Source: Tremella fuciformis (taxonomy: Eukaryota; Basidiomycota; Tremellomycetes; Tremellales; Tremellaceae). From it: 64,000 bases of DNA. The stretch lies in contig CP136490.1 of assembly GCA_032768795.1 (NCBI GenBank), forward strand, positions 1,984,001 through 2,048,000, given 5' to 3'. A model generated the notes under the pieces. The model had not been told where the DNA came from. It ran no database searches and saw nothing but the letters and a program-made list of their open reading frames with translations. Of this stretch, positions 1-63,196 are shown piece by piece (position 1 is the stretch's first letter; each line of letters begins with the position of its first letter). Position numbers and translations under genes: made by a program.

Positions 1-772
1 TTTCAGGCACATGTGCCGGCAGCTCGATTGAACCGCCCGACATGACCTGTAGCTTGGTTTGCAGCAAGCTATCGAACACACTCTTTTCGGACACCAAGAA
101 CATGATCCGCGGGACGTTGACCAAGCCTCGGCTGTGGATGATGTCAGCGGTAAGCTCGAACGACTTGGAGGCGAAACCTGGCGAACTATGCCAGGATCCC
201 CCGGCGGTCAGGCTAAACATGTCAGATAACTCGCTGAGCGCAGAGGCTAACAGCTTGGACAGCTTGTGCCCAGGTTTGGCAGTGTCCGTCCTGGATGGAC
301 CCGACTGGTTGGTGCTTCCCGTTGACTGACCGCCGGTCAGCTCGACCTTGTGACCAGCAGAGGACCCTTTCGAGGAGCTCTTGCCAGTCAAGGTCGAGCT
401 TGTTTCACCCGGCATTGACGACCGACGTCGGCCCATATTCTCTCCCTCAAGCTCATCTCTCAAGGCGCTCATGAACCTGTGACTGCACTCACGGTTGTGG
501 ACAGTCTCGTGCGCGTCCAGGTTGACCGACATGTATGACTCCAAGTCACGCTGCAATGCCTCGACTTCGTCTTGCTTACTTGAGTGTAGGTGCCTGTAGT
601 CCAGCGCTTGGTGCTGTCTTGCAGTCTTTGTCCCTGTCCGCAGGGGGAAGGCGAAGCCTACCAAATGTTGATGGCCTGCGGACGTGTACGCGAGGACCAC
701 CTCACCGAAATCTGGCGTGTCAAGGTTCGCACCGGCCGGCGCGTCCAACTTGCGAAGCGGGGTGAAGGGCAT
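1..772 (-). CDS. Tandem IYAFPL-motif family, member 1 (partial, runs off left edge)
   Basis: An open minus-strand frame starts at an ATG at 770-772 and continues for about 257 codons past the left edge without a stop. It belongs to the unknown family repeated downstream. Residues about 26-45 contain LAYTSAGHQHLVGFAFPLR, matching the N-terminal block of the other members. A central helix-like NRECSHRFMSALRDELE follows, and near the edge the C-terminal block reads RIMFLVSEKSVFDSLL. A Ser/Gly/Thr-rich linker (about residues 110-170) makes it longer than its paralogues. The nearest paralogue lies beyond the copia element at 1162-6830; with the element removed the spacing would be about 1 kb, like the rest of the array. 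No signal peptide or membrane segment is visible. Function unknown. Confidence 0.72.
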   Translation of the reverse strand, partial: MPFTPLRKLDAPAGANLDTPDFGEVVLAYTSAGHQHLVGFAFPLRTGTKTARQHQALDYRHLHSSKQDEVEALQRDLESYMSVNLDAHETVHNRECSHRFMSALRDELEGENMGRRRSSMPGETSSTLTGKSSSKGSSAGHKVELTGGQSTGSTNQSGPSRTDTAKPGHKLSKLLASALSELSDMFSLTAGGSWHSSPGFASKSFELTADIIHSRGLVNVPRIMFLVSEKSVFDSLLQTKLQVMSGGSIELPAHVPE

Positions 773-1156
773 GTCACTTCGCGCGGTGTGCCACGCGATT
801 TGTTAAGAGAACACGTATCAATATTGTGCGGGGGCTGGGGATGGGAATTGGGAAGCTTATCTATATCCATCGCTCAGCTGGACCTCTCGGCGCTCTGCGG
901 ATCGAGGGGCTTCCTCGGCGACAAAGGATCGCCTTGCTTTGTGCTCAAGCCTTTGTCGTTCCAGCCAGTACGGGATAACGGCGACCGCGTCTAGCTGGCT
1001 AGACCGACGGCTTTGGGAGACCTGGACAGTACAGAGTTTATCTCAGGTTTGAAAAGACGCGCTTAGTGACAGGCGGTGGCATATCAGAGCAATAGAAGTA
1101 TGTACTGTATACGAGTATATACGAATCCACAGTCTGCATGGGGTCGACATGCAGGG
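773..1156. other. Intergenic, upstream of array member 1
   Basis: No gene seen. An AT-rich stretch with TATATAC on the minus strand near 1115 is a possible but distant promoter element for member 1. The segment ends at the copia target site. Confidence 0.5.
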
Positions 1157-1161
1157 GAGGA
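1157..1161. repeat. Target-site duplication of copia element 1 (left)
   Basis: GAGGA directly precedes the left LTR. The same five bases follow the right LTR at 6831-6835, as expected for integrase-mediated insertion. Confidence 0.9.
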
Positions 1162-1317
1162 TGTTACACAATGATGAGAGCTATGCATTCGTCCATCTCT
1201 GCAGTTCTCTACTTATGAGCTGTCGCTCTGCTCAAGCCATCTACATAAGGTTACTCATTTGGCCGCAAGAGGCAATTCTGACCCTATGAGGCGTCTCTCG
1301 GGGCCTATTGTTCAACA
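1162..1317 (-). repeat. LTR (3' LTR of copia element 1)
   Basis: 156 bases with TGTTACACAA...TTGTTCAACA ends (TG...CA), matched base for base by the copy at 6675-6830. The gag-pol stop codon lies just inside this LTR. Confidence 0.93.
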
Positions 1318-4300
1318 CTCCCCCTCGAAGTCTGCAGGCTGCAGGTGGCCGCAACAGGTCTGGCGGTTGTGCCAAGGACCTACCGGGCATCCCCAAGCCT
1401 GCTGATCTTCGCTCCAGGACGATAGAGGCCCGAGACCGCGCGTCGCGAGCGTCGCACGGTCCAGACCAACACTTCCTTCAGGCTGATGGGAAGGCGTCCG
1501 GCCGTTCTCCATCAAAACCGACCCAAAATCGATGATCTTGGTGTCTGCCGGTAGCCCTGATCCTCTTTGGGATCCTCTGGCTCCCCCTGCATGCATACAG
1601 TCTCTGATACCCCGTGTGCATGCAGTAAAGCGTTGCCAATGAAGCTGAGTCGCGAGCTGACTATCGGCATTTCGGCGTTTTGACCCGACCACGTGGTGTG
1701 GCAGACGAACCGGAGCGCGACTGACTTTGTCATTCAACGTCTTCTCGCTACCGCCGATGCCTTCTAGATCGCTGAATGCAGCCGCTAGGTGGACGAGAGC
1801 GCGCTCCCCGCCGGCAGGCGGACGCCCCAGACCCAGAGCTTCAAAATGGCGCGCGTGAGCGGCCGCCGGGAGCGACTTTGTGAGGATATCCGCCTTCTGG
1901 TCTGCAGAGCTGACGTATCGCAGGCTCACCTTGCCTGCGTCGACAAGTTCTCGGATCAAATGATGCTTTATGTCGATATGTTTGGTCCGAGAGTGAGTGG
2001 TTGGCTGTCCTGCAAGCCTGATAGACCCCTGGTTGTCGCAGGAGAGCGGCGTTGGTGATCTCTGCTCGAGTCCTAGCTCACAGAGCAGATTCCTGAGCCA
2101 AACCGCTTCCTTGGCTGCTTCCGCGACAGCGATGTATTCGGCCTCGACAGTCGATGTTGAGACGGTAGTTTGCCTGCGAGACGACCAAGTGATCGCCGAA
2201 CCCTTGAACTCCATCAACCAGCCTGTGGTTGACCGCCGAGTGTCCTTGCAACCCGCCCAGTCCGAATCTACCCAGCCCTGCAGCCCGTCATCTTTCCCGC
2301 CGCCTAGCCTGAGCCCGACAGTCCGTGTGTGGGCTAGGTAGGTCAGGACGCCTTGTGCGAGGTCCCAATGCTGACGGGTAGGTGCTGCGAGTGCCCTGGA
2401 GAGGTACGAGGCCGCGAACATGACGTCCGGACGCGTGCAGCCCGCTAGCCATAAGAGACACCCGACAAGCTCTTGATAAGGCGTTAGGGAGGCTAGATCG
2501 TCCTCTACCTTCATCTTGGTGTCCTGCGGCAGCGGTGTCGATCGTGAGCGTCTACTCGTGTGCTCTGGGAAGCGCTCGAGCACCCTGTCGACGTATGCGG
2601 GCTGACTCAGCCAGACCGTCCGCCTAGCCTTGTCCTGCGATACCTTCATCCCGAGCACGGTGCCGACGTTGCCTATGACCGTAATCGTCCACTCAGCCTT
2701 GAGAGCGGTCCACAGGGCGTCTATCTCCCCCTGCGACGATGCGGCAATCACGATGTCGTCGACATAGACCAAAACAAGCACGATTTGGCCTTGCCCTTTG
2801 GACTGTCGGACATACAGTCCCCAGTCGCCGTTCGTCCTCTGGAAGCCCTGTCGACGTAAGACTCGTCCTAGCTCTTCCCACCAGTTCCTTGCTGACTGCT
2901 TTAGGCCGTACAGGCTCTTCAAGAGCAGCAGAGCGTCGCAGCCCTGCCTCCGCCGCATCCCGTCGGGGTAACGGATGTAGACTTCGGTATCAATAGGGCT
3001 GTTCAAGTAGGCACCCTCGACATCGGCCTGCGCGACGATCATGCGGTCGGCTGCGGCGATCGCCAGCAACAGTCTCAGAGACCCAAGGCGGCCTACAGGC
3101 GCAAACGTCTCTTCAAAATCGATACCCGGCACCTGCGAGAAGCCCTGTGCGACGAGCCGCGCCTTGTGTTTGACGACGTTGCCGTCCGCGTCGGTCTTGA
3201 CCTTGAATACCCATCGCGAACCGACAGCCTTGCGGTCTGCAGGAAGCTTCACCTCGCGCCAGGTCCCCTTACTCTCGATGTTCGAGATCTCCTTTTCCAT
3301 GGCGGCAATCCACTCTTCCCTGTCGCCGCCCGCCATCGCCTCTGCTAGGCTCCTGGGATCCACAGGCATTACGGGGCCGTCGGCGGCATTGGCGGACAGA
3401 AAGGCAAACGGGCTGTGCAGCCGTTCTGCGATCGCACCGAATTTTGGAGGCGGTCTTTTGTCGCGGACGGGCCGTCCGACGGTAGTGGTAGCCACAGGAG
3501 GTGCCGGTGGTGCCGCCGAGACGGGAACATAGGTCCAGCGGTCGGCAACAGGGATCCTGGGACGATTGGTGGCCACTGGCAGTCGGGACGGACGGGGGAC
3601 CCGAGGCTGCTCGGGTGTGTTGGAAATGACCGGTGCGGGATCGTTGATTGTGAGCTCTTCTTCCGATGCATCCACCCCAGCGACATTTTTCTGGGCTTGT
3701 CCGGAGTCCTGCTGATCCTCAGATGCCTTCGGATCGTCTCTATCATCACTCCTGCCCGAATGACTGGCGATCTTGCCCCCCATCGATCCAATAGGTATGA
3801 GCTGTGCTTGGTCGCTTTGGGTCACGTGACCGAAATCGGCTTCATCGTCCTTCGACATCTCGAGCACTTTGACGTCTCTTCGATGGGCAATCTCACCCGT
3901 GGCGTCGAGCTGCACGGTCCAGCCGCTCTGGGTCTCACTCTGACCGAGTATCCGACACGCCTCGCCGCGCTCTTGCGTGAAAGACGCCTTACGGCGGATC
4001 TGAGACGGGATCTGCGCATGACATCTCTGCCCGAATCGTAGGATGGAACCTAGGCCTCTCTCACGCCCTGTGAGTGCGCTCCAAGCCGATAAGCCCGTCC
4101 TGGCTGACTCAGACAGCTTCATGATGATCACCGCTGCGTATCGAGCCGCGAACGACCAGTAGGAGTGAGGCAAACGGCTATCGGCTAGCATTGCGGCTGT
4201 CATGTCTTTGATGGTGCGTATCATTCGTTCAGCCGCCCCGTTGAGCTCGGGCGTGTACCTAGGCGTCATGTAATGCTGAATACCGGCTGACTGATAGAAA

Positions 4301-6330
4301 GCGCGGGCTTCCAAGCTGTCGAACTCGCCTCCGCCGTCACTGCGAATGACTCGGACGCGATCTCCGAGCTGCCGCTCGATCTTGGCTACAAACTGCTGCA
4401 GGGCGTTAAACGCCTCTGACTTCCGGCCTATCGGGACCACGCCAAGGATCTTGCTTGAGCGCTCGATAGCTACGAGCATGTTCTCGCATCCGTCAACGGA
4501 TGTCTCGAACGGTCCGGTAATGTCAACATCAACGCCGACACCGTCGCCGCCGCCTCTGAGCAGCGGAGCGTCACCCGCCTTGGGCGGCCTGGTAATTTTG
4601 GTGCGGGCGCACACCTCGCATGCAGCGGTGACGAACGGATCGTCCTTATAGGCGCGCCAGGGCTCGGTAAGTAGGTCTTTCCTACCCAGCTCTTTGAGCC
4701 GCTCAACGCCTATATGACCTAGACGCTGATGCTCAGCCTCGAGCGGTGATCTAGCGTCGACAGCGGTGGCAAGCAAGATCGTGGGGTGCGTCCTGCCAAG
4801 TCGCACGGTCCAAAGCGAGCCTTTCTTTCGCAGAGCTAGCCTTTCCTGCCGTCGCTCGAGCGTCCCGCCGTCCCCTTTCAAATCGGCCCGCCAGCCCCAC
4901 CGAAGCAGCCTCGAGAGCGAGCAGAGGCTGACCCGAGCCGTCGGGACATGATAGACGTCTCGAAGCGTGAGGCGTTGCCCGGACGACAGAACGAGATCTA
5001 CCTCGCCCACCTCGATAGCCTGGATTGTGCCGGTGTCGCTGGCTAGCCCAAAGACTCGAGGCGTGTCAAGACGGCGGACACGCTTTAGGATTGACCGGTG
5101 CGGGGTCAAATGATCGGTGGCCCCGCTATCTAGGACCCAGACGGGCTCGACGGCCTCCGACTCGACCTGCAGGGTGTCTGCGGTGAACAGAGCGTCATTA
5201 CCAGCCTCTGCAGACTCGTCCTCAAACCACGGGTCGTCGAGCTGGTCGGGAAAGACGATGCGATCGTCGCTATCGTCGTCGAGCTCGGCCCATTCGGTAG
5301 CGGCAACGGTGAGACCTGCCCATGGATCCATGTCAACTTCCAGGGCTGCAGCGAGCAGTCCGGAGTCGGCCTTAGGCGGGATCGTGATCCTCTTATCGGC
5401 GGCGGTGACGTCCTGGCGTTCTTGGACGCCCTTGCGTTCGCCGCGGCCACCTCTCTGTCGAGCAGAACGACCGCCACGGCCCTGCAGGCCGCCGCGCTGC
5501 AGTTCTGCAGCCTTCTTGCGGCAATCACGCTCCCAATGACCTTTCTTGCCGCAATGTCGACATTCGTCATTGGTCTTGTCTCTCTCGAAGCGCGGGCGAC
5601 GCTCGACAGCCATCGCGAGCGGTTTGCCGCCATTACCTTGCCGTTGAGGCGGCCTAGCCCGTCGTCGCGCGATCTCGGTCGTGTATTTCGAGAGCACGAC
5701 GGCCCAGGACTGCTTGTCCTTGGCGATGGGGGCCAATTCAGCCCTCACGATGTTGAAGGCGGGGTCAAGGATCGTGGCGAGGAACCTCTGAGCGCGCTCG
5801 GTGTCGCTCAGGACGATCCCGACGCGCTTGCCGTCCGAAATCGCCTTGGAGAACGTCTCGACATGAGCGCTCATCTCGTCTGCGGAGGCGTCCCCTCGAA
5901 GATCGAGCGTCCACAGGCGGGCGTGCACGATCCTCTGATTCTCAAGCAGATCGGCCTCGTGCATCCTGTCGCAATACTTCCACATGTCGACTGCAGCGAG
6001 CAGGTCTTCAATGTCGAGCCGAACGGCCTCCGAAACCGTCCCCTTCAACATCGCCTGTGCCCTGCTCTCTCGGGCTTGCCACCTCTCCCAGTCTTTCTTA
6101 TCCTCGCTGCTGAGCCCGCCAGCCTCGGATCCCGCCGGCATGACAGACCCGGCTCGAGTGCGGCGCTCGGTGGCTGCAACGCGCCCTGGCTCAAGATCGA
6201 GGCCCAAGGCTGCATTCCAGCAGTCTCCGAGCTGCAGGGCGACTTCTACGGCCGCCCGCCATGGGGCGTATGACGAGGGATCGTGCGAGAGCTTTGGGAT
6301 CGCGTCGATGTTGACTCTGGTGGCAGACAT
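1312..6330 (-). CDS. Copia-type Gag-Pol polyprotein
   Basis: One frame of about 1,672 residues from the ATG at 6328-6330 (MSATRV). The frame is open further upstream but has no earlier ATG. Domains in order: Gag capsid-like region (1-250); zinc knuckle CRHCGKKGHWERDC; aspartic protease with LDSGATDHL; GAG pre-integrase HQRLGHIG...CEVC; integrase core with the D-D-E residues in the copia pattern (VDVDITGPF, RSDGGGEF, TPELNGAAERMIR); a Pro/Ser-rich spacer; reverse transcriptase with the YVDD box; RNase H with DSDWAGC and KHIDIKHH. About 150 residues after RNase H have no recognised domain, and the stop falls inside the 3' LTR. No stop or frameshift interrupts it. It makes the proteins for reverse transcription and integration of this element. 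Confidence 0.95.
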   Translation of the reverse strand: MSATRVNIDAIPKLSHDPSSYAPWRAAVEVALQLGDCWNAALGLDLEPGRVAATERRTRAGSVMPAGSEAGGLSSEDKKDWERWQARESRAQAMLKGTVSEAVRLDIEDLLAAVDMWKYCDRMHEADLLENQRIVHARLWTLDLRGDASADEMSAHVETFSKAISDGKRVGIVLSDTERAQRFLATILDPAFNIVRAELAPIAKDKQSWAVVLSKYTTEIARRRARPPQRQGNGGKPLAMAVERRPRFERDKTNDECRHCGKKGHWERDCRKKAAELQRGGLQGRGGRSARQRGGRGERKGVQERQDVTAADKRITIPPKADSGLLAAALEVDMDPWAGLTVAATEWAELDDDSDDRIVFPDQLDDPWFEDESAEAGNDALFTADTLQVESEAVEPVWVLDSGATDHLTPHRSILKRVRRLDTPRVFGLASDTGTIQAIEVGEVDLVLSSGQRLTLRDVYHVPTARVSLCSLSRLLRWGWRADLKGDGGTLERRQERLALRKKGSLWTVRLGRTHPTILLATAVDARSPLEAEHQRLGHIGVERLKELGRKDLLTEPWRAYKDDPFVTAACEVCARTKITRPPKAGDAPLLRGGGDGVGVDVDITGPFETSVDGCENMLVAIERSSKILGVVPIGRKSEAFNALQQFVAKIERQLGDRVRVIRSDGGGEFDSLEARAFYQSAGIQHYMTPRYTPELNGAAERMIRTIKDMTAAMLADSRLPHSYWSFAARYAAVIIMKLSESARTGLSAWSALTGRERGLGSILRFGQRCHAQIPSQIRRKASFTQERGEACRILGQSETQSGWTVQLDATGEIAHRRDVKVLEMSKDDEADFGHVTQSDQAQLIPIGSMGGKIASHSGRSDDRDDPKASEDQQDSGQAQKNVAGVDASEEELTINDPAPVISNTPEQPRVPRPSRLPVATNRPRIPVADRWTYVPVSAAPPAPPVATTTVGRPVRDKRPPPKFGAIAERLHSPFAFLSANAADGPVMPVDPRSLAEAMAGGDREEWIAAMEKEISNIESKGTWREVKLPADRKAVGSRWVFKVKTDADGNVVKHKARLVAQGFSQVPGIDFEETFAPVGRLGSLRLLLAIAAADRMIVAQADVEGAYLNSPIDTEVYIRYPDGMRRRQGCDALLLLKSLYGLKQSARNWWEELGRVLRRQGFQRTNGDWGLYVRQSKGQGQIVLVLVYVDDIVIAASSQGEIDALWTALKAEWTITVIGNVGTVLGMKVSQDKARRTVWLSQPAYVDRVLERFPEHTSRRSRSTPLPQDTKMKVEDDLASLTPYQELVGCLLWLAGCTRPDVMFAASYLSRALAAPTRQHWDLAQGVLTYLAHTRTVGLRLGGGKDDGLQGWVDSDWAGCKDTRRSTTGWLMEFKGSAITWSSRRQTTVSTSTVEAEYIAVAEAAKEAVWLRNLLCELGLEQRSPTPLSCDNQGSIRLAGQPTTHSRTKHIDIKHHLIRELVDAGKVSLRYVSSADQKADILTKSLPAAAHARHFEALGLGRPPAGGERALVHLAAAFSDLEGIGGSEKTLNDKVSRAPVRLPHHVVGSKRRNADSQLATQLHWQRFTACTRGIRDCMHAGGARGSQRGSGLPADTKIIDFGSVLMENGRTPSHQPEGSVGLDRATLATRGLGPLSSWSEDQQAWGCPVGPWHNRQTCCGHLQPADFEGEC

Positions 6331-6660
6331 CGCGATAAAGGTAGGTAAAGGTGGTCTGTGCACACGCGGGGGTGCTGATTTTGATAGATATGACGGCACG
6401 GTGTGCGTCAGCGGAACGATACCTCACAGGGGACGACTTTCGCGATAGAGCGCCTGTTACTAGGCCCGACGCTCTCCCTGTGTGCTTACGAGGTGTTCTC
6501 GTTCTTCCTCTAGCCTTCTCTGACGGCTAGGAACTTCCTCGAGCGTCCGCGGCGATGTAGACGGCGACGGCTCGGTTTGTGGCGGTGTCTAGAGCGTCTG
6601 CGGCGACGGCGACGGCTCGATAGACAGCCCGTATGCTCTCTGTAGTCTCGGGCTGAGACT

Positions 6661-6674
6661 TGGGACTTTTAATC
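6661..6674 (-). promoter_or_regulatory. Primer-binding site of copia element 1
   Basis: Directly after the 5' LTR the element reads GATTAAAAGTCCCA (minus strand). It lacks the TGG start of a normal tRNA 3'-end site. Its complement TGGGACTTTTAATC looks like the anticodon stem-loop of tRNA-Lys(UUU), which suggests priming by a cut half-tRNA as known for Drosophila copia. Element 2 has the same 14 bases at 40065-40078. Confidence 0.6.
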
Positions 6675-6830
6675 TGTTACACAATGATGAGAGCTATGCA
6701 TTCGTCCATCTCTGCAGTTCTCTACTTATGAGCTGTCGCTCTGCTCAAGCCATCTACATAAGGTTACTCATTTGGCCGCAAGAGGCAATTCTGACCCTAT
6801 GAGGCGTCTCTCGGGGCCTATTGTTCAACA
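6675..6830 (-). repeat. LTR (5' LTR of copia element 1)
   Basis: Direct repeat of 1162-1317 with the same 156 bases; should carry the element's promoter. It is followed by the right target-site duplication GAGGA at 6831-6835. Confidence 0.93.
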
Positions 6831-6892
6831 GAGGAAGGTGAGGCATGACAGCTTTGAACAAGCACTACGATACGCCGTCTGACGAGGCAGAA

Positions 6893-7453
6893 TCAAGACT
6901 GCGCTACAGAGGAGGGGTCGTCATAATCGGCATAGGTCTGATCTTTAGACGTCGGTTGTGACGATCCCGGTCCAGCAGCCATGCGTCGCAACGCTTCATA
7001 CGTGTCCGAGTCATCGACCAAGATCAGTCGCTGCGGGAGCTGTTTGTTCGATTTCTTGAGGTCTCCAATGACGTTTTTCACATGTTGATGACTGCTAATC
7101 GTTCCCCCTCCTGAGACAAAGCGTTTGAAATCACTTTGCACTCTCTTGGCCTTATCTGTAAATTCGGTGTAAGGTCTTATACGGTAGATAAAGCTGCCCA
7201 TGCGGGTTGCCCATTCCTCTTTGAAAGGGCCACGCCAGTCGTGTATTTTTGTGGTCTTGGGCTCTAGTGGCTCTTTGGCCAAAGAGATGGTAGGGAAACT
7301 AAAACAATGCACCGTCTTGTCTGTGAAGAGCCCACTTCGGGACGATATGCTGGCCTGTACCACAAGGCCCACTCGTACTTTAGTAGAGGGGAGAGAGGGA
7401 TCAGTGACAGAAGCGGTAGCCGGAGGCTTGGTGCTTTTGCGGGAGACGCTCAT
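6893..7453 (-). CDS. Tandem IYAFPL-motif family, member 2
   Basis: Single-exon frame of 186 residues. The ATG at 7451-7453 (MSVSRKSTKPP) is chosen because the frame upstream has no other ATG. It is the most divergent intact copy. The N-terminal block ends DKTVHCFSFPTISLA where relatives have IYAFPL, and the C-terminal block is LPQRLILVDDSDTYEALRRM where relatives have a hydrophobic strand followed by FDxLxxxIE. The tail is Ser/Asp-rich. The LPQ[RK] core is closest to member 3 next door. It lies just outside the right LTR of copia element 1. No domain I know; function unknown. Confidence 0.6.
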   Translation of the reverse strand: MSVSRKSTKPPATASVTDPSLPSTKVRVGLVVQASISSRSGLFTDKTVHCFSFPTISLAKEPLEPKTTKIHDWRGPFKEEWATRMGSFIYRIRPYTEFTDKAKRVQSDFKRFVSGGGTISSHQHVKNVIGDLKKSNKQLPQRLILVDDSDTYEALRRMAAGPGSSQPTSKDQTYADYDDPSSVAQS

Positions 7454-7997
7454 GATGACAAGACGCTGATGGCTACTCACTGGCAGAAAAAGATGCCGGG
7501 GTGTTTTGGAGAGGAATGCAAGTCTTCGCCGTCACATATTGCACTTGGCTTTGCACATTCTGATCCTTTCAATACTTACATCTTTTGTCCAACTATTGAA
7601 CTACCGCTGTGGCCAGGCCTGTATGCACGAAGCTCCGCTTGACGAGCGCTCGAGAGGAAGAAGGCGCCAGCGATCAACCCTTTCAGAATTCTCACGTTTC
7701 AGTTTCACAAATTTGAGCGGCGCATCAGTCTGGGCTCCCCTCGGGGCTGGTGGGGACCCGAGCAGCATGTAGCTGACAGGCGAGACTGCGGTCTGGACCG
7801 GAAAGGAAGAGACCAGCCGCTGTTGTAGGTGCGCGCCCTACCACGTTCAGCCTATACCTCCAGGCCGTCCGACACACAACGGCAGTTCCCTTTCAGAACG
7901 GCGGACGACGTTTCATGAGACGTGGAGCTGCTCAGAAGCTAGGCGCGACTGCAAAGTCTTGTTTACGTACTGTGTCTGCTGTCGGACTCTGTGCTCA
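7454..7997. other. Intergenic between array members 2 and 3
   Basis: About 540 bases without a supportable gene. Plus-strand open frames here have no family features. It should contain the member 2 promoter. Confidence 0.4.
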
Positions 7998-8824
7998 TCA
8001 AGAGGGGGAAGACGTACTGGTCACGGCTCCTAGAAGATATTCCGTGCGGAGGTCAACGACACCTGATAGGTCTGGATGGTAGGCTCGTACCCGCATGTTT
8101 CCCATATAGCGGCGCGTCACTGATACGATGAGCACGCAAGGAACATCTTTTGATTCCCAGATGTATGACACGTTTGTATATACAATGAGATGCATGGAAT
8201 TACGGGTCGCACTGGTACCGCAGAATCCTTGACCATCCTTCCCGCGAGAGTCATGAAGAACATACGCAGATCCGACCAGCTTAGTACAGCCGTCCGTGAA
8301 GATCTCATAGAGTCTTGGGAGATCCATGAGGACGATCTTTTGCGGCAGGGGTTCTCGGACCTGCGAAGTCCCTCTAGCCACTGTGAGAATTTATCAGACC
8401 AATCTGCCTCTGAGCACTCGGAAACGAACGAGCTCTTCCCGTATTCGCTTTCCAACAACAGTGCCAGAAATTGCTTTGCGTGCGTGTTGTCCCAGACTGC
8501 CCGCTTGTCTTTGTCTTCGATGACGCCAAGAGTGTGCAGCTCAATCGTAGATAGCGTCTCCACTGCAGTTGAGCGTGGAGCAGACTTTCCCTCCTCCCCA
8601 CTTTGGAGACAGAGTCTTGAGTCAATCGTCGCGGGCGGATCGATTGCCTCATCCTCAGAGGCTTGCGCAGGATACAGCACTGCAGCTTGGTATGTCCTGG
8701 TGTCGGTGAGACATAGCAGCGTGCTGAAAGCGGTACATCGCCGGCGGGCATCCTCACTTTCGACCTCATCTTCTGGAAAGCGGGGCGGGCTACACTGATC
8801 CGGAGAGGAGGTGGTGTCGGTCAT
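7998..8824 (-). CDS. Tandem IYAFPL-motif family, member 3 (frame change inside)
   Basis: Starts at the ATG at 8822-8824 (MTDTTSSPDQ). The N-terminal block (STLLCLTDTRTYQAAVLYP) and a long acidic middle are in one frame. The C-terminal block LPQKIVLMDLPRLYEIF, which matches member 2, is in another frame at about 8290-8360. The switch lies between about 8440 and 8365. A phase-compatible intron (donor GTTTCC, acceptor CGCAG, 65 bases) would join them, but its donor is weak, so a frameshift is equally possible. Beyond YEIF a GTATGT at about 8270 could be a further donor; the 3' end is therefore uncertain. Function unknown. Confidence 0.45.
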
Positions 8825-9237
8825 TTCGGTGCTGGATGGAAGGAAATAACCTACAATGGTGTCGGTGAAGGGGCTGTAAGATCACCCTTAGCTTCAGTAC
8901 TGTAGTCCTGCGGAAAGACAAATAGAGAATTAAGCGGACCGGATGGCTTTTTGGGCAGCGCTCTTTAGCCGCGAACCTACAACAAAGGTTCGCCTACAGC
9001 GTCGCGGGCAAAGTAGGGGCTGGAGCTCGATTGTTTCGCTTGCCCACAAGAGCCAGCAACAGGACAGGTTAATCGCAGGTCGAAGGATCCTCCTGCATAT
9101 TGTGAACGCCACAAGCAGTTTAGAGATTTGGTATGTACATACACGGTGGAGGTCGAAGGGCGTACATGCATCCGCCCAATCAATGTAGGACCTGCTCAAC
9201 GTACTTGGAGCACTGCGATGGTGATGAACGAGCACTC
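8825..9237. other. Intergenic between array members 3 and 4
   Basis: No gene supported; open frames here lack any family block. Confidence 0.4.
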
Positions 9238-9837
9238 CTAATCCGCGTCAACGTCCATCGGATCGCCAGGCAAGATGACGGTCTCGGTCTCAGCCTCAGT
9301 CGGTGGTAACGGAGGCTGCACCGCTTGCCCTCTCAACGCGGCCTCAATGCTACATCTGAGGTAGTCGAAGAGGTCTCTCCGAGTCGTGGCAAAGACAGCA
9401 TTCAGATTATGAGACTTTGACGTCCCCAGGTTAGTACAGGCTTGCGTAACTTCGTCCCGCCGGAGGCTGTCGCGCCGTGTCCACGGATTTACATGTAGTC
9501 GAGATATCATGCTTACGGCTTCTTGGTTCCCGCCCTCTTGAGCGCCCGAGACGTTGGGGGCGACGAAGGACTGGTCGAGACTCAGCATCTTCGTCAAGTG
9601 GCTGATGACTTGTGCTGCGTCAAGAGAAAACTTGGACCACCATGGCTCGCGAGTTGGCGCAGTCGGGAGGTGCCTCTGAATTGCTTCGAAATGGCTCCTA
9701 AGCGTCTCGCCGCCTGTTTCCAAATTACAAAGCATGCTCACCAGGGTTTCTCCAGCCCTGAGAGGATACAAGTACACGCAGAGGTCGTCGTGTGTACTGA
9801 AGGCGACAAGTCCAACTGTCGTTCCAGAGGCAGACAT
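9238..9837 (-). CDS. Tandem IYAFPL-motif family, member 4
   Basis: Intact single-exon gene of 199 residues from the ATG at 9835-9837 (MSASGTTVGL). An in-frame ATG nine bases upstream is possible, but this start aligns with the neighbours. Blocks: GLVAFSTHDDLCVYLYPLRAG (split as GLVAFSTHDD and LCVYLYPLRAG, residues about 8-29), a central SLDAAQVISHLTKMLSL (about 75-91), and the C-terminal NLNAVFATTRRDLFDYLRC followed by SIEAALRG (about 140-167). The tail ends in GDPMDVDAD, like the GDPMEID tail of member 6. No signal peptide, membrane segment or known domain. Probably a small soluble protein; function unknown. Confidence 0.68.
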   Translation of the reverse strand: MSASGTTVGLVAFSTHDDLCVYLYPLRAGETLVSMLCNLETGGETLRSHFEAIQRHLPTAPTREPWWSKFSLDAAQVISHLTKMLSLDQSFVAPNVSGAQEGGNQEAVSMISRLHVNPWTRRDSLRRDEVTQACTNLGTSKSHNLNAVFATTRRDLFDYLRCSIEAALRGQAVQPPLPPTEAETETVILPGDPMDVDAD

Positions 9838-10188
9838 CCGGGGCATGCAAGTCAAATGCGAGATAGAGAGTACTGGGAAAATCGGGGTGCTTATGCAAGA
9901 ACCTCAATATGAATGAAGACGGGCTTGGGCCGGAGAAGCAAAGAGGTCGCTTGAGTCCAAGGGGCTCGGTGAAGAAGGGAGCAAATGTGACAAAACTCGA
10001 CGCCTCGCCTTCTGCTTGGCAGCGTATAGATCAGAGGCCCGCGCACGTCAACAGAAGGCGAGACAAGCCATCGAGTGGAGCTGCACCAATGCCGACAGAG
10101 CTTCTCTTAAACAGGAATCGATGCGGGATGCCCTGTCTACGAACAGACCGTTGTATGCTTATCACGACAACTACGAACAGTTTGGACT
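9838..10188. other. Intergenic between array members 4 and 5
   Basis: No gene supported. It probably holds the member 4 promoter and the old 3' end of member 5. Confidence 0.4.
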
Positions 10189-10882
10189 TCAATTGCACGC
10201 TAATTCATACGCAGCGTTACGATGGTCCGTGTACTGTAGTCCCGGTTTAAGGCTGAAGTGCCGGTGGGCGACAGTCTCGATCCATCCAGACGCCATTGTT
10301 CTCGTGACAGTCCCCCGGGTCCCCCAATAAGGTGTCCGCCTTGTGTCCTTCGCGTGAGGTGCTGACGATCCCTTCAGCAATCGACTCTGCAACTCGGCCT
10401 CAATCTTTGATACGACTTGGTCGAAGGCATTCTTTCCCGTTCAGAGAGCACAGCACGCAAAGTACGAGGCGGATATTTCAGTAGTAGATCCAAGCATGTG
10501 TCTTTCACATCGTCCTGTCTGAGGACAAGGGACCGCGCCAAGCGGTTTCTCACTAGCCGAGTCATCATGCCAATTGCCTCCCCCTTCTCGACCTCATTGG
10601 CGCTTGAAATCTTGGGGGGTTCGGACTGCAAGAGCCTGAGCTTCTCTCTGATGAGCTTGACGAATCCTGCACTTCAGAAACGAAGTCGTCCGTCCTTGGG
10701 CTCTGGGTTGACGCGGTCGGAAGGTGGCTCCTGATCCTCTCGAACTCCTGCACGGCGGATGTCACATTAGTGCCAATGAGAACGGAAGTTGGAGATTCAA
10801 GAGGAAATGTGTACATTAGGAGTTCGTTCTTTGTGCTGAACGTCGCCAGTCCAAAGGGCGTTCGAGAGGCAGACTCAGACGT
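10189..10882 (-). pseudogene. Tandem IYAFPL-motif family, member 5 (decayed)
   Basis: All family blocks are recognisable but spread over three frames. The N-terminal FGLATFSTKNELLMYTFPLES leads into SHLPTASTQSPRTDDFVSEVQD. Near 10660 the frame must shift to continue with VKLIREKLRLLQSE and MTRLVRNRLARSLVLRQDDV. Near 10430-10437 it must shift again to reach NAFDQVVSKIEAELQ. At the position of member 4's ATG this copy has ACG (880-882 of the 10 kb block), so the start also appears lost. No consensus intron explains either sh.ift. The order and spacing follow member 4 closely, so this is a degenerate duplicate. Confidence 0.7.
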
Positions 10883-11218
10883 AGACTTTAGGGGTGGCGA
10901 ATGAAGAGGGAATAGAGCAAGAATCAGATGTCTGAGGAGAACTGACAGAATGGCTGCCTTCTGTCCACACATTGGGCTGTCAGAAGAACGGAGCGAATGT
11001 GAAAAGCAATTCCTCTCCATGATGAGGGGGCATAGAGGTACTGCTAGCTTTACCAAGCCCGAGCGACCGAACGAAGGCACCCAGATTTTACGAGAGGAGT
11101 GGGCAAACTTCTAGCGTTCGAAGGCATATTCGCGCACGGATCACACTGTCTGAGTTTCACGTATACATGCTCGTGTGGAAGCCCACGCCCGAGCGTTAGG
11201 ACGCATAAGAAAACAATG
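10883..11218. other. Intergenic between array members 5 and 6
   Basis: No gene seen; only short open frames without family blocks. Confidence 0.4.
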
Positions 11219-11766
11219 TCACTGCTTGGTATCAATCTCCATCGGGTCCCCCGGCTCGATGCCCCTGAAAGTCGACTCGATACGGGAAACAAATTGATCG
11301 AAGAGCGTTTGATTCTCTACAAACCATATACTGTCCAGCCCGTACGACTCTGACGGCTCCTTCAAGCAACAAAAGGCCAAGTGAACGTTTTCCTGTGTAA
11401 GGCCGCCCCTAGTAGCGGGAGAGACGACTTTAAGACGCCACGTTTGACCGACAAACCCCTCATTGCATGTGGCGCTTTCAGGCGCCGGACGGGAGCTGAC
11501 GACACTCAGACCGAGGGTTTCTTTCAGACTGTTGATGAAACGCTGGCATCCTGCGAGGCAAGGTTTGACGTTAGGAGTGCTCTGGTCTTCGTGCGAGATA
11601 TCATGGTCTCGATTTCGAGGCTGCATGACCTAACGATTCCATCTGACTTTGCAAAGGTTTCAAAAAGCAGCCCTTCAATGCCGGCTTTAAGGGGAAAAGC
11701 ATAGATGCTTAGCTCACTGTTCGTGCAATAGGCAACTGTGGCAAAACGGGTTTTCTTGGGAGGCAT
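11219..11766 (-). pseudogene. Tandem IYAFPL-motif family, member 6 (single frameshift)
   Basis: The ATG at 11764-11766 (MPPKKTRF) opens a frame with VAYCTNSELSIYAFPLKAG, the clearest version of the N-terminal block. Near 11591-11610 the frame must change to continue into CLAGCQRFINSLKETLG, TWRLKVVSPATRGG, then SIWFVENQTLFDQFVSRIES and the tail GDPMEIDTKQ. No donor and acceptor pair of usable length sits at the change, so a one-base indel is the simplest reading; an assembly error is possible. Everything else looks intact, so the loss, if real, is recent. Function unknown. Confidence 0.62.
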
Positions 11767-12270
11767 TCGTTGGGAAGCAAAAAGCACAAGGATGATGGAC
11801 TATTGTGAACTGAGAGGGGGGGGGGGGGGGGGGGGTCTTCTGGCTGCTGTGTGTTCCGCTTGTGCGAGAAGCTGAAGGAAAGGAGGAACTGCTGCCAAAC
11901 TTGCCACAATGGAAGAGACGAATGTGAGCCGATTTCGAGACACAGGGAGGGGCGCCAAGGTTTTTCTCTACTTATTATAGGCGGATGCATCGCTCGCATA
12001 CTTGGGCGTTGGGGATGAAAGCGAGCACCTGAGTGTAAGAATATGTAGCCGCTACATACCTGGAGAGGGGACGAGCTCTTCATCTGCTGAAAAGATCGGA
12101 AGCCGACATAGTCCTGGCTTGTCTGGAGCGGAGTGCTTGAATGCACATGGCCAGGGAAGATCCGCCTAGTTAATCGAGGGAAATTGCATGATGCGAATGA
12201 ATAGACTATAAACATGGAATTCACTGAGCAGACAGATGGCAGCAGCCGTCGCTGCTTGTCACAACGAATA
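11767..12270. other. Intergenic with poly(G) run
   Basis: About 500 bases between members 6 and 7. It holds a run of about 20 G at roughly 11816-11835 and a TATAATAAG on the minus strand near 11970. Nothing codes convincingly. Confidence 0.45.
11816..11835 (+). repeat. Poly(G) homopolymer run
   Basis: An uninterrupted run of about 20 G 50 bases upstream of the member 6 start. One of four such G/C runs in the window. Confidence 0.85.
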
Positions 12271-12876
12271 TCATGGAAAGAGCGCACGGTCCTCCTGTCC
12301 GGTGAGGCCCTCGTCTGCCATTGTAGACCTATCCGCTGGAACGCTGTGTTGGGAGGGGGAAACCGCGCCTCGCAGTGCTGACTCGATTTCCATTGTGAGC
12401 TGATCAAAGAGGGTTCGGTTGCCCGCAATGAAAAGTCCATCAAGCCAGAACGAGGCATCGTGCTGCAGCTTCCACAGCGCGGCGACGAAGCTCGTCTGAT
12501 CTAGCCCTTGAGTTGCTGAACTGGTAACGAAGAGCCGAAAATTTCTTCCGACCGGGTCCACATCAGCGACCGCCGCGCTTCCGGTAAAGGGAACGAGCTG
12601 CGGATCACGAGACAGCGTGAAGCGACTCATCAGCGCGTCCAGGCATTCCGTCGCGTTATGCAGGCAAGGCTCAAAGCTGGCCTGCTGACCAGTCTCTCTT
12701 GGCATGGCGATGCAGGCCTGGATGTCTGCCAGGGCTAGCTGGAGAGTATCGTTCTGGTTGATAGACCAGTAACTGCGGACAGGACCGGAGTTCGGGTCGA
12801 GCGGGAAAGCGTAGATATTTGAATTTGCCGTTGTGCAGCATGTGACTACACCGTAAGGATATCGGCCAGACGTCAT
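12271..12876 (-). CDS. Tandem IYAFPL-motif family, member 7
   Basis: Intact single-exon gene of 201 residues from the ATG at 12874-12876 (MTSGRYPYGVV). All four family blocks are present: TCCTTANSNIYAFPLDPNSG (residues about 10-29), CLHNATECLDALMSRFTL (about 75-92), FRLFVTSSATQGL (about 118-130) and LFIAGNRTLFDQLTMEIESAL (21 residues, seen as LFIAGNRTLFDQ then LTMEIESAL, about 153-173). The tail is Ser/Pro-rich. A TATAAG on the minus strand at 12975-12980 lies about 100 bases upstream. No signal peptide, membrane segment or domain I recognise. It is the best reference copy of the family. Function unknown. Confidence 0.7.
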   Translation of the reverse strand: MTSGRYPYGVVTCCTTANSNIYAFPLDPNSGPVRSYWSINQNDTLQLALADIQACIAMPRETGQQASFEPCLHNATECLDALMSRFTLSRDPQLVPFTGSAAVADVDPVGRNFRLFVTSSATQGLDQTSFVAALWKLQHDASFWLDGLFIAGNRTLFDQLTMEIESALRGAVSPSQHSVPADRSTMADEGLTGQEDRALFP

Positions 12877-13515
12877 AACGGCGATACGTGGAGTGAAGGG
12901 AGATGCTGAGGGATGCAGGTAAGTGTTGAGCAAGAGTGACCATGCAGTCGGGCGTCTTGGGAATTGATCGCCAGCTTATAACAGCTTGGAACAGTGGGGC
13001 CTTCTGGCTTGTCACGCACGGTCGTGAGTCGCCTTCCTCCGTTTGGCAGAGATGCAAGGAAGGTTTGTAGCGATATCTGATGAGCACAAAGGACGGCCCA
13101 CGAGAAGGATACCTGGTCTTCTCGAACGGGCTGGTCTTTGGGGTGAAAAGAGGGAATACAGGGGCAAGCGAGCTGGTCATTGCATAAAATGTAGGTACAG
13201 ATTAATTGGAACAAACGATACCAAGCAAGATGAACGGGTCTGTTACCAAGTTTTTACCAAGTTTGAGCCGTGATTCAGGCAGTAGGTATGACTTTGAGGA
13301 ACTTGGGGAACAAAGACAAAGATGGGATGGAAACGAATGCATGAAAAGAGTAGTACAGTAAAGTAACCAGACCAAGCACTTGTGTGCACGGCAACATTTG
13401 CTTCTTCAGAAGGTTTGGGCAACGTTGCGGGGGGATCATCCGCCCACATGTTTGAGAAGTGGTAACTGGAAGGGTCATGCGGGACGGCCGGGTCGCTGGA
13501 CAATGTTGCATGTTC
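12877..13515. other. Intergenic between array members 7 and 8
   Basis: About 640 bases. It has the TATA-like element of member 7 at 12975-12980; otherwise I see nothing supportable. Confidence 0.4.
12975..12980 (-). promoter_or_regulatory. TATA-like element of array member 7
   Basis: TATAAG on the minus strand about 100 bases before the member 7 ATG, a normal position for a TATA box with a short leader. Confidence 0.35.
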
Positions 13516-14208
13516 TCACTTGAAAGAAAACAAACGGCTTGCCCTCTCCCTCCAACTCTCTGAGGCCCGGTTGTCTTCCTCCTTCGAGGCCTGTCTGTTC
13601 GCTTCCTCCGAGGCACGGTTGTACTCCTCCATTTGACCGCCCCACACGTATGAGATAGGATCAACTGCTATACCGGAATGTGATAATGCTCTGGAGACAA
13701 AGCCATCAAAAGCAACTTTGTTATCAGTTAGCAAAGTGCACCTCAATCCGGGGGCGTCCTGAAGCAACAGCTGTAGGTCGTAAAAGATCACCGCCTCATT
13801 GAATGTTTCTGGGGGCCGTAGCGCCCATCCCATTGTGCCTTGAGTATCATTGTGAACCGTCGTCATACTAGGAGCTCCCTCAGATGTGTTGATACCCATG
13901 CGGCTGCTCACTTTTTGGGTCAGTTGCTCGAGAAATTGATTGGCGTAGTAGAATGTGGCCTGTGGCACCGTCCGAGCTGCTTCGCTTTCGGAGCCCGTGA
14001 GTAGATATGGCTCAAGCTGAGTGAAAAGCCGATCGATCGCATCTGCTTTGTCCGTTCTGTACGTCCTTGCGATATCGGTACCAAGCTTCAGCGGTATAGC
14101 GCAGATAGTAAAGCAGGCATCCTCAGCAAGAGCTGCAATGGCAAAGGGATTCGGCTGAGCTATCCGGAGTGTTTCTGCTGACTCTGCTTCAAGTGCGCTG
14201 GTTGACAT
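13516..14208 (-). CDS. Tandem IYAFPL-motif family, member 8
   Basis: Intact single-exon gene of 230 residues from the ATG at 14206-14208 (MSTSALEAESAE). Blocks: FAIAALAEDACFTICAIPLK (residues about 23-42), YYANQFLEQLTQKVSS (about 86-101), GWALRPPETFNEAVIFYDLQ (about 125-144) and CTLLTDNKVAFDGFVSRALS (about 155-174). After the last block comes a charged, coil-like tail rich in Glu, Arg, Ser and Ala that other copies lack. The family core is kept although overall identity to its neighbours looks low. Function unknown. Confidence 0.66.
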   Translation of the reverse strand: MSTSALEAESAETLRIAQPNPFAIAALAEDACFTICAIPLKLGTDIARTYRTDKADAIDRLFTQLEPYLLTGSESEAARTVPQATFYYANQFLEQLTQKVSSRMGINTSEGAPSMTTVHNDTQGTMGWALRPPETFNEAVIFYDLQLLLQDAPGLRCTLLTDNKVAFDGFVSRALSHSGIAVDPISYVWGGQMEEYNRASEEANRQASKEEDNRASESWRERASRLFSFK

Positions 14209-14667
14209 GATCTCTCTTACCTGTCACTCTATTAATGGGTTGAAGCGATCGTTTGCAGGGAAAAGAAGGATTGCCTCTGACAAGCAAGCCTATAAGGCTG
14301 TGGAGCCAATGGCCTTCTCTCCGGCCTGCTTCTTTCAACCTCTCTGACGAAGAACGCTTCGAGGGAAGCCTCTTTCAGACACCGCATTCGAAAAGGCGAT
14401 TGGTAGAAGCAAGCGCTGTGAGAGGCTTCGCTGTTGCTACTTTTGGCAACCGCAATGCTTGACCACGATAAAAGGTGAGTGTCTCTGCCCATCGCGAGAT
14501 AAAGCAAAGATGGGCTTAGAGCAGCACTTTGAAGTAATGGTCGCATGACTCAAAGTAGGGTCTGTCTATACAGTACAGTACAGGTGCTATGGCTGTTTCA
14601 GAGTGCAACAGCGCTCTGTGTGCATCGGGGAAGTGGAAGGGCATACCTACAGAGAATGAGGATCCGT
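14209..14667. other. Intergenic between array members 8 and 9
   Basis: No gene seen; a CTATAAGG element near 14290 is on the plus strand. Confidence 0.4.
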
Positions 14668-15276
14668 TCACTGTGACCGGCAGCCCAGATTGACGTATTC
14701 TCTCCACATCGCAGGGTGGGTATCGGGCCTCGCCTTGGGCTCCAGCTTCGCAGCAGGCTCAATTGAAGGGGTCGGTGTCAAGGCCTTCTCCATCTCACTT
14801 ACGATCTTGTCGTAATATCCCTCGTCGCTCGTCAGAGAGGCGGCCCTCAAGAATGGCACATCTTTTGTCATTCGAGTGGTGTGTAGACTACGAAGCAAAA
14901 GTTTGAGTGAATTGTAGGCATCACTTTCTAGGGGCAGTCGATACCTCTGCGCAGTTGAGCCTCGACCTTCAGCCGTTTGGGGCATGGCGTCAAGCTGCAC
15001 TTGGTCAGTCAAACCCCCATGTTGACTAAAGTTGAGAGCTTGGAGGGTGGCCTGAACATGGGCGGAATTGAGGGTGCATGGCCACCCCGATCCTCCCAGT
15101 GGCGTCCCGGCCTCGTTTTCGAAGATTGACTCCCACTCTCTTTGATAACCAGTTTCGTCCTCGAACGTTCTGAACGGGCCAGTGTGGCAGCCCTTACGGC
15201 GAGGATACGCATATATGGTCAACTCGGTATCTGAGACGTGACCGAAAATCCCAAAGTAGTCGGTTTCGGTCGGCAT
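14668..15276 (-). CDS. Tandem IYAFPL-motif family, member 9
   Basis: Intact single-exon gene of 202 residues from the ATG at 15274-15276 (MPTETDYFG). The frame is open further upstream but lacks features there. The N-terminal block YFGIFGHVSDTELTIYAYPR is very close to that of member 10 (YFGLVGHRTDHEITFYAYPR), so these two adjacent copies form a subgroup. Further blocks: TLNSAHVQATLQALNFS, RYRLPLESDAYNSLKLLL and, near the end, EGYYDKIVSEMEKAL in place of FDxxxxxIEAxL. The tail is Pro/Lys-rich. No known domain; function unknown. Confidence 0.68.
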   Translation of the reverse strand: MPTETDYFGIFGHVSDTELTIYAYPRRKGCHTGPFRTFEDETGYQREWESIFENEAGTPLGGSGWPCTLNSAHVQATLQALNFSQHGGLTDQVQLDAMPQTAEGRGSTAQRYRLPLESDAYNSLKLLLRSLHTTRMTKDVPFLRAASLTSDEGYYDKIVSEMEKALTPTPSIEPAAKLEPKARPDTHPAMWREYVNLGCRSQ

Positions 15277-15874
15277 GATGCAGTGCAAAACAGGCAGGTG
15301 AAGACAATTTGTCGTGAATTCACCCAATTGAACGGGGTAGCAGGTGAAGAAGAGTTTTTTTTCGGTGGAGCTGTTATTTGGGAACTTCCCCGGCGGGCAG
15401 AGATGCAAGGAGGGATTAGACCAATTCACACAAGCCTGTTCGAAAACAAAAACGAATGGAAGTCGAGAAGCCTCAGCCGCTCGCCCACACATATATACAT
15501 ACAGTACGTAGCCTTCGCAGTAGGAAGGCGGGTGGGGCTGAAACACTGGTTGCCTTAGCGATGGAGCTGTGCTCCGTTGTCAGAATATGCATGTTGAATA
15601 ACTTGGCCGGGTCTGGACCGGGCAATCGAGATCTGAAACAACATACCTTTGCAAAGCAAGGCGCCCGGGGGTAGCAGGCGTGGTGCGTCCGAAGGCCCTG
15701 CCACACGGGCTGGCCGGCAGGTTCGCACGGTCCGTCTTTCCCAGTCGGCGACACAGGGACAGTCAGTGACCTGATGCACCCGAATGGTCATTTCCCGAAT
15801 AGGGTACTCATGGAATCGCAGGTACTGCATGTTTAAGACTGGCTGTATAAACTAAAGTAATCCCTTGACAATAC
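15277..15874. other. Intergenic between array members 9 and 10
   Basis: About 600 bases. TATATAT on the minus strand near 15490-15500 is the only promoter-like element; no gene supported. Confidence 0.4.
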
Positions 15875-16457
15875 TTACTCTGATATGAACGACGACGACG
15901 ACTTCGCGTCGGACCCAAATGGCTCGGTCGGCCCCGACGGTAAGGTGGCTTCGATCCGGGCTACGAGCGTATCGAAGAGAGTCTTGTCCTCAGTGAGGGA
16001 GACACCGCGGATAAATCGACCACAGTGGGCGTTCTGGTTGGCGCTCAACTTCTCCAGCACCTCGGGGTCTATGAATGAATGACCTTGAGTCTACCTGGCC
16101 TCTGCTGAGTTGATAGGTCTGCCCGGCGGGTTTCTCACCTTCGGCCGTCTCCTCTATATCGTTGGCGCCGACGTCTTCAGCCCATGCGGGGAAATCACCA
16201 TGGGCCAGAGCCACCAAGCTATCGAGCACATGCAGCTCATTAAGAGTCAGGGTTGGTGTTGAGGCTGTCGCATCGGGCGCGGACGGTATCTGGAGAGTTC
16301 CGCGAATCGACTCGAGGCGTTCTGCACAAGACGCTTGGTCATTGAACCTGAACACGCCCCGGGTAAGTGGCTCGTCAAGACGGGGATAAGCGTAAAAGGT
16401 AATCTCGTGGTCCGTACGGTGGCCGACGAGCCCAAAGTATTTGGTTTCTGCCCACAT
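15875..16457 (-). pseudogene. Tandem IYAFPL-motif family, member 10 (4-base duplication)
   Basis: The ATG at 16455-16457 (MWAETKYFG) opens a frame with the N-terminal block, TLNELHVLDSLVALAHG and GQTYQLS. At about 16070-16083 the plus strand reads TATGAATGAATGACC. One extra GAAT unit throws the frame; without it the reading would run from VDSRSFI directly into DPEVLEKLSANQ and the C-terminal block EDKTLFDTLVARIEATL, ending at 15875. As it stands the protein ends early and lacks that block. Closest relative is member 9. The lesion looks like replication slippage, either recent or polymorphic. Confidence 0.68.
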
Positions 16458-39942: not shown

Positions 39943-39947
39943 ACTCT
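39943..39947. repeat. Target-site duplication of copia element 2 (left)
   Basis: ACTCT before the 5' LTR, repeated at 45388-45392 after the 3' LTR. Confidence 0.9.
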
Positions 39948-40064
39948 TGTTAGCGGTGCCGCCACCTCGAGTCATAGGGTAATTACCGAGAAACTCCGTC
40001 AGCTAGTAGGACCCATTACCATCTCGTAGGATATGTCAGATGCGACTCATATCTCACGTCAACA
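39948..40064 (+). repeat. 5' LTR of copia element 2
   Basis: 117 bases with TGTTAGCGGT...CACGTCAACA ends, identical to 45271-45387. Confidence 0.93.
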
Positions 40065-40078
40065 GATTAAAAGTCCCA
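40065..40078 (+). promoter_or_regulatory. Primer-binding site of copia element 2
   Basis: GATTAAAAGTCCCA directly after the LTR, the same 14 bases as in element 1. The complement fits a tRNA-Lys(UUU) anticodon arm rather than a tRNA 3' end. Confidence 0.6.
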
Positions 40079-40798
40079 GTACTCGACCTAGGCTCACGGC
40101 AATCCCTAGCGGTCACAAAAGCAGAGCCTTGGTGCAGTGGTTAAGCTGCCAGGCTTGGATTCTTTCTCATTCTGTGGACGGCAGTACCTTTTGGCGCTGT
40201 TCGCTTCCCGTGTGGGATTAGCTGTCGAGTTGCGGTCCTCCAGTACTCTCGTGTGCGCTGGTTGTGACTTCTCGGCAGGGAGTCTAGAGTTCGAGTACCA
40301 CGAGGTGCGGCATAGCGGGCATTCAGCAATACGACCGATCGTCAGACCCGTGCAAGTCACATCGCTCTCGGTAGTCGACACCGAGACGGAACGCCTTGTT
40401 CGATCCGTCGCGTCCTGGAGGGCAGGTTTTTGCCTTGGACGTGCGCGTTGTCCTGGAGGGCGGTTTTGCCTTGGACACGGAAGACGGAGAACTGGAAGGG
40501 CGCGCCTTGTTCAACCGGAAAGCCCACCACTCTTGGGCGGGAGAACTGAAGGGCGGAAGTAACGCTCTGCACCGTACTGGTGTAGGAGAAGCGGGCAGTC
40601 TAGCTTCGGCTCAGACGTAGACATTGTCTTCGGACGGTGTGAAAATCCAGATTATCACTGGTGGCGTGCACGGAGAGGCCCTTGGTGCACGTCTTGCGTA
40701 CGATAAGTCCTCTCCGAGAGTTTGATCACTCTGTTTAAGGCTGTTGCTGAATTTGCGACGGATAAGGCCTTGGTCGTCATCACCTATTCTACGGCACG

Positions 40799-45202: not shown

Positions 45203-45270
45203 AGGACTGGTGATAGCGAGCACGGCAATTCGGGTAGCACCAGGAGACTCAAGAGCGGCGGCAGAGGGAG

Positions 45271-45387
45271 TGTTAGCGGTGCCGCCACCTCGAGTCATAG
45301 GGTAATTACCGAGAAACTCCGTCAGCTAGTAGGACCCATTACCATCTCGTAGGATATGTCAGATGCGACTCATATCTCACGTCAACA
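45271..45387 (+). repeat. 3' LTR of copia element 2
   Basis: Direct repeat of 39948-40064, followed by the target-site duplication ACTCT at 45388-45392. Confidence 0.93.
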
Positions 45388-45551
45388 ACTCTTGCCGTCG
45401 ATGTCTGCGGATCTAGGATGGAATGCTTACGTAACTGTACCTGAAACTTGGACGCGTCTTAGTCCGAGGTTTTGGCTTGTTTCGTGCCCCGAGACAGCGT
45501 CCTAACCACTCTTTCACAAAGCCTGTCCAGGTGCGCTTGCAGCTCGCCAGG

Positions 45552-57466: not shown

Positions 57467-63196
<5,730 letters not shown>

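Follow-up and report, generated by a model that had tools for sequence, protein, structure and literature searches.

Orphan tandem families, which are restricted to a lineage, are common in fungi. They have no homologue in searched databases, their copies lie in tandem, and intact copies stand beside broken ones; effector genes are often tandem orphans. The silver-ear fungus Tremella fuciformis, which is edible, has a genome of 28,140,229 bases in 11 contigs. We analyzed a window of 64,000 nucleotides of this genome (C1, Chr01, positions 1984001–2048000), in which a preliminary description based on the letters of the sequence had proposed a tandem array of ten diverged paralogues of an unrecognised protein family. 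The analysis reported here establishes a real, unrecognised family that is smaller and older than first described and of a familiar kind, so that the surprise is moderate. The T. fuciformis family shares with other fungal orphan families the three features listed above and differs from them in that its duplications appear to be old and its proteins appear to be soluble and intracellular rather than secreted.

Membership of the tandem array

Ten minus-strand open reading frames (ORFs) or remains of ORFs, designated m1 to m10 (Table 1), were found at the positions proposed previously, apart from small corrections of the starts. The ATG codon of m4 is located at position 9846, nine bases before the proposed start at 9837, and there is no ATG codon at position 10882 for m5, the in-frame ATG codon of this copy being located at 11020. 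The ORF positions bore out the common orientation of the array, and the start-to-start spacing amounts to approximately 0.9–1.4 kb, as proposed, once the length of an inserted copia element is subtracted. The ending GDPM[DE][VI]D attributed to two copies is present as GDPMDVD near the end of m4 and as GDPMEID near the end of m6.

Common descent was assessed with leave-one-out profiles, each of nine pieces from eight members (m1 and m4 to m10) being compared with the profile of the other pieces. The target consisted of 2,173 six-frame ORFs from 104 kb, made up of the window plus 40 kb next to it. All nine left-out pieces were recovered, with expectation values (E) of 4.4e-15 for m7, 2.2e-11 for the N-part of m10, 2.7e-9 for m4, 3.5e-8 for m9, 3.9e-7 for the C-part of m6, and 1.3e-6 for the N-parts of both m6 and m5. 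The weakest values were obtained for m8 (0.0033) and m1 (0.0057), whereas no clear non-member in the nine runs had an E below 0.25. The C-part of m10, which was absent from every seed, was matched in 13 of 13 profile runs (E 7e-8 to 0.063). Composition shuffles scored as high as the corresponding sequence in 0 of 2000 cases both for m8 and for m1, in 694 of 2000 cases for m2, and in 321 of 2000 cases for m3.

A three-block test, which applied spacing limits and 1000 shuffles, placed m7, m8, and m9, each left out in turn, above every non-member. Left-out m1 scored 28.0, compared with 29.5 for one long non-member ORF. Shuffles scored as high as m2 in 9 of 1000 cases and as high as m3 in 591 of 1000 cases, and m2 was outscored by four unrelated non-member ORFs. 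The check proposed previously, in which a profile built from half of the members is used to find the other half, succeeded in part in each direction. The profile of m4, m7, and m9 found m5, m6, and m10, that is three of the five other supported members, and m1 and m8 were not among the 16 matches listed. The profile of m1, m8, m6, and m10 found m9 (E 2e-7) and m5 (0.005), the values for m4 and m7 being 0.028 and 0.054, respectively. Recovery was partial because m1 and m8 are distant. Together, the profile, shuffle, and block tests indicate, at the level of sequence, that eight copies (m1 and m4 to m10) share common descent. Support is lowest for m1; of the ten members proposed, m2 is a doubtful case and m3 an unsupported one. 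A match of m2 to positions 57470–58051 of the window (blastp E 0.001, phmmer 0.023, genome search 2.25) was judged to be due to chance, the matched stretch being ABC-transporter-like by eye.

Five copies (m1, m4, m7, m8, and m9) hold all blocks in one ORF. In m5, there is no ATG codon at the N-terminal block and the family blocks are spread over three frames; those of m6 lie in two frames, as do those of m10. An intron scan considered formal GT..AG pairs of 30–200 nt joining the frames and detected 19 such pairs in m6, 24 in m10, 50 in m5, and 7 in m3. None of the pairs in m6, m5, and m3 was judged to be a reasonable intron. In m10, a candidate intron of 70 nt (16138–16069, GTGAGA...ATAG) was found, removal of which would delete strand β4. 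The proposal that most copies are intronless is correct for the five intact, single-exon copies and is qualified by this candidate. Two or three of the eight supported copies thus appear to be decayed. Several one-base assembly errors inside one array are unlikely since the Tr01 genome was assembled from PacBio HiFi and Nanopore reads together, as stated in PMC10696834. The coexistence of open copies (m1, m4, m7, m8, and m9) and broken copies (m5 and m6) is in agreement with the birth-and-death evolution suggested at the outset.

Database relatives and predicted structure

No Pfam family was found for the ten ORFs (E up to 1) or for 11 pieces (E up to 10), the matches, which included Pyocin_S (0.14) and DUF3781 (0.24), being at chance level. 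NCBIfam returned no family for nine proteins (m5 was left out). The match of SlpX among PDB sequences (0.034) and that of phrog_28091 in PHROGs (0.036) were also at chance level. In a collection of 5.8 billion proteins, seven sequences sharing 100 words led to 5759 candidates, none with an E of 1 or less, and m7 alone led to 220 candidates, none with an E of 10 or less. The same collection gave 108 relatives of the neighbouring ADAM-type protease, some of them named as fungi, indicating that fungal sequence is present in it; its content of Tremella sequence is uncertain. The earlier statement that no known family displays this pattern was therefore upheld by Pfam, NCBIfam, PHROGs, PDB sequences, and both searches of the 5.8 billion proteins. 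In the literature on T. fuciformis and on such a family, we found no paper describing it. The array apparently encodes an undescribed protein family.

The T. fuciformis genome was searched with nine single-protein queries, namely seven pieces of supported members, m2, and m3. No further convincing copy was detected with the seven pieces of supported members. Two candidates were rejected as extra copies, C1:3860180 (E 0.53 with the m4 query) and C3:1512921 (E 0.008 with the m1 query), the latter containing two TGA and one TAG codon. Neither of the two matched the family profile, which reached an E of 6.2 at best in one stretch and had no hit among the matches listed in the other.

AlphaFold2 models were obtained for m7 (predicted local distance difference test score, pLDDT, 77.8; predicted template modelling score, pTM, 0.73) and m9 (pLDDT 68.3, pTM 0.65). 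Strands and helices follow each other in the same order in both models. The four shared blocks recognised previously coincide with predicted β1-β2, α2, β4, and β5-α4. No significant structural match was obtained for either model among the matches listed by Foldseek against the PDB (m7 and m9), Foldseek against viral models (m7 only), and VIA (m7 and m9). The best conserved columns (m7 numbering) are Pro25 (8/8), Asp158 (8/8), Leu115 (7/7), and Leu82 (8/9), while Glu165 reaches 6/9; Pro25 ends strand 2 and Asp158 opens the last helix. Among the members, no His column is conserved and no Cys column exceeds 5/8. Strands 1 and 4 contain no acidic column, and Asp158 is the only conserved acidic position. 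The few conserved positions (Pro, Asp, and hydrophobic Leu) are probably structural.

Age, constraint, and possible roles

The number of synonymous substitutions per site (dS) was computed for 11 chosen pairs; 52 inter-gene pairs were aligned for codon positions only. The two parts of m4/m5 gave dS values of 1.07 and 0.94, and the N-parts of m9/m10 a value of 1.28. In the eight other chosen pairs, dS was at least 2.5 or saturated. Since dS is approximately 0.9–1.3 in the closest pairs and almost none of the DNA-level similarity between copies is left, the duplications appear to be old, with no recent burst. Relatives are therefore predicted in other Tremella species, which would make age, constraint, and function testable.

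The ratio of nonsynonymous to synonymous substitutions (dN/dS) amounted to 0.51 in one part of m4/m5, 0.62 in the other part, and 0.52 in the m9/m10 N-parts, in alignments covering most of the shorter piece. Five frames of 201–281 codons are still open although most pairs are close to saturation at third positions. A codon score, trained on 11 ORFs of the window and favouring stop-free frames by construction, was positive and the best of the six frames for the proper frame in 14 of 14 ORF pieces. The codon scores of m2 and m3 were also positive and highest in their own frame, which was the only positive frame in the case of m2. Constraint on the family is modestly supported.

The reading that we favor, with a probability of roughly one half, is that the array is a tandem family restricted to a lineage, with soluble binding domains that are probably not enzymes, under slow birth-and-death evolution. 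The family of about eight members would have arisen by ancient tandem duplication at one place on Chr01. Each intact gene is predicted to encode a small α/β domain protein of approximately 200–280 residues. Hydropathy, the only basis for this prediction, suggests that the proteins are soluble and not secreted, as the intact copies contain no strong hydrophobic stretch, either at the N-terminus or of a membrane type. A role in binding rather than catalysis is inferred since acidic, Cys, and His residues form no conserved set. The proteins would most likely bind a partner inside the cell, their surfaces diverging between copies while copies were slowly gained and lost. Candidate partners include a non-self or mobile-element signal, a stress protein, or an ordinary component of the cell.

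Several observations weigh against this reading or parts of it. The m8 and m1 queries retrieved only themselves from the family in the genome searches, and remote copies located elsewhere could have escaped. The m4/m5 and m9/m10 pairs, which provided the dN/dS values, each contain a broken or possibly broken copy. Second codon positions were more alike than third positions in all 11 chosen pairs, and the 52 inter-gene pairs showed this excess without exception. The same excess was obtained in 96% of 300 alignments of codon-shuffled unrelated pairs, indicating that it arises from aligning by protein and proves nothing; it was dropped as proof of constraint. The m7 and m9 models were built on the same 11 sequences and are hence not independent. 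A borderline hydrophobic stretch is present in m8 (1.75 over 19 residues). Finally, the binding role depends on missing catalytic signatures.

The leading alternative, itself unlikely, is that the array holds genes for self/non-self, anti-transposon, or anti-virus recognition that diversify by birth-and-death. The tandem layout, the strong divergence between neighbours, and the presence of broken beside intact copies are all in agreement with this proposal. However, HET, NACHT, and NB-ARC domains had no Pfam match in the ten ORFs or the 11 pieces at the thresholds given above, so that no recognition domain was recovered from Pfam. In addition, the duplications appear to be old, dN/dS is below 1 in the readable pairs, and diversifying selection is not shown.

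It is also doubtful, somewhat more so than for recognition genes, that the whole array is decaying and that no copy is functional any more. Frame-breaks in two or three of the eight supported copies and failure of the codon-position evidence in the shuffled-codon control would fit such a decay, but five frames of 201 codons or more have stayed open despite the old divergence, and dN/dS is approximately 0.5–0.6 in the closest pairs.

We consider it improbable that the family derives from an old α/β domain of an enzyme or a mobile element (Prp/YsxB-like protease or RNase-H-like fold) whose catalytic residues were lost, although an origin from a mobile element would also account for the missing introns. 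The fold of the Prp/YsxB-like ribosomal-processing cysteine proteases recurred among the structural matches, weakly, with approximately 5% identity and no significant score. Prp/YsxB catalysis uses His and Cys, whereas the T. fuciformis proteins have no conserved counterpart of either residue, are larger, and possess an extra C-terminal helix. An active cysteine protease of this type was rejected based on the lack of conservation of the catalytic His and Cys and of a Pfam match. The RNase-H-like fold is a five-stranded sheet with the strand order 3-2-1-4-5. The order of the elements in the m7 and m9 models is compatible with this fold, the fold searches being weak. RNase-H-like and actin-like ATPase folds gave no significant score, superposition on Hsp70 led to a root-mean-square deviation of 20 or more, and the family has a single conserved Asp. 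An RNase-H-like nuclease was rejected because the conserved acidic catalytic set was not found.

Very improbable, in our opinion, is the more specific proposal that a new α/β fold family of Tremella or its close kin mediates polymorphic intracellular recognition, such as non-self, mobile-element, or partner-nucleus sensing in the dikaryon. Least probable of all are secreted effectors acting in the association with a partner fungus, since the intact copies have no strong N-terminal hydrophobic stretch, as judged by hydropathy only, and contain few cysteines, even though T. fuciformis occurs in association with Annulohypoxylon (PMC13288022).

The family has been tested statistically and is apparently undescribed; it is located in a gap-free mushroom genome, and no convincing match was found for its predicted fold. 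According to PMC13066641, 27 T. fuciformis haplotypes have been published, and these could reveal whether the copies differ from nucleus to nucleus.

The copia insertion and the neighbourhood of the array

Table 1. Members, proposed members, and the inserted element in the T. fuciformis array (window positions; aa, amino acids).
Feature	Position	Strand	Description
m1	1–772	−	Intact single-exon ORF, 281 aa; 3' end outside the window by about 70 bases
copia LTR (long terminal repeat) retrotransposon	1162–6830	−	5,669 bp, between m2 and m1
m2	6893–7453	−	186-aa ORF, doubtful member
m3	8117–8824	−	235-aa ORF, membership unsupported
m4	9238–9846	−	Intact single-exon ORF, 202 aa, terminal GDPMDVDAD
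m5	10380–10882	−	Apparently decayed copy, blocks over three frames
m6	11219–11766	−	N- and C-parts in different frames, terminal GDPMEIDTKQ
m7	12271–12876	−	Intact single-exon ORF, 201 aa; AlphaFold2 model
m8	13516–14208	−	Intact single-exon ORF, 230 aa
m9	14668–15276	−	Intact single-exon ORF, 202 aa when read from the aligned ATG; AlphaFold2 model
m10	15878–16457	−	N-part 16098–16457 and C-part 15878–16090 in two frames: either frame-broken or spliced with loss of β4

The open frame of m9 contains an earlier ATG codon at position 15492. The copia insertion of 5.7 kb reported previously was confirmed. Its two 156-bp repeats are 100% identical and it is flanked by a 5-bp target duplication (GAGGA). 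The element is a recent insertion, located 62 bases beyond the stop codon of m2, and no member is disrupted. A second copia-type element at positions 39943–45392 of the window, whose 117-bp repeats are identical and whose target duplication is ACTCT, is also a young insertion.

Upstream of the members, a homopolymer of 20 bases, read as C on the minus strand, is present at positions 11816–11835, approximately 50 bases from the start codon of m6. A 22-bp stretch is shared upstream of m7 and m9 (13045–13066 and 15396–15417; 20 of 22 bases identical, E 0.029) and a 23-bp match was found upstream of m4 and m5 (E 0.35). Besides these two stretches, no further similarity of flanking DNA outside the coding blocks was present among the matches listed.

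The array is adjoined by ORFs for a Reprolysin/disintegrin (ADAM-type) metalloprotease on the minus strand (17519–19127), with Pfam matches for 17522–18241. The ORF located at 18204–19127 is 94% identical to a database protein encoded on a 14-kb contig. In the region adjoining the array on its lower side (own coordinates 1968–3701 and 6704–8102), we noted, by eye, ORFs resembling an AN1-type zinc finger and, after it, a kinase-like protein, as well as an enoyl-CoA hydratase-like gene.

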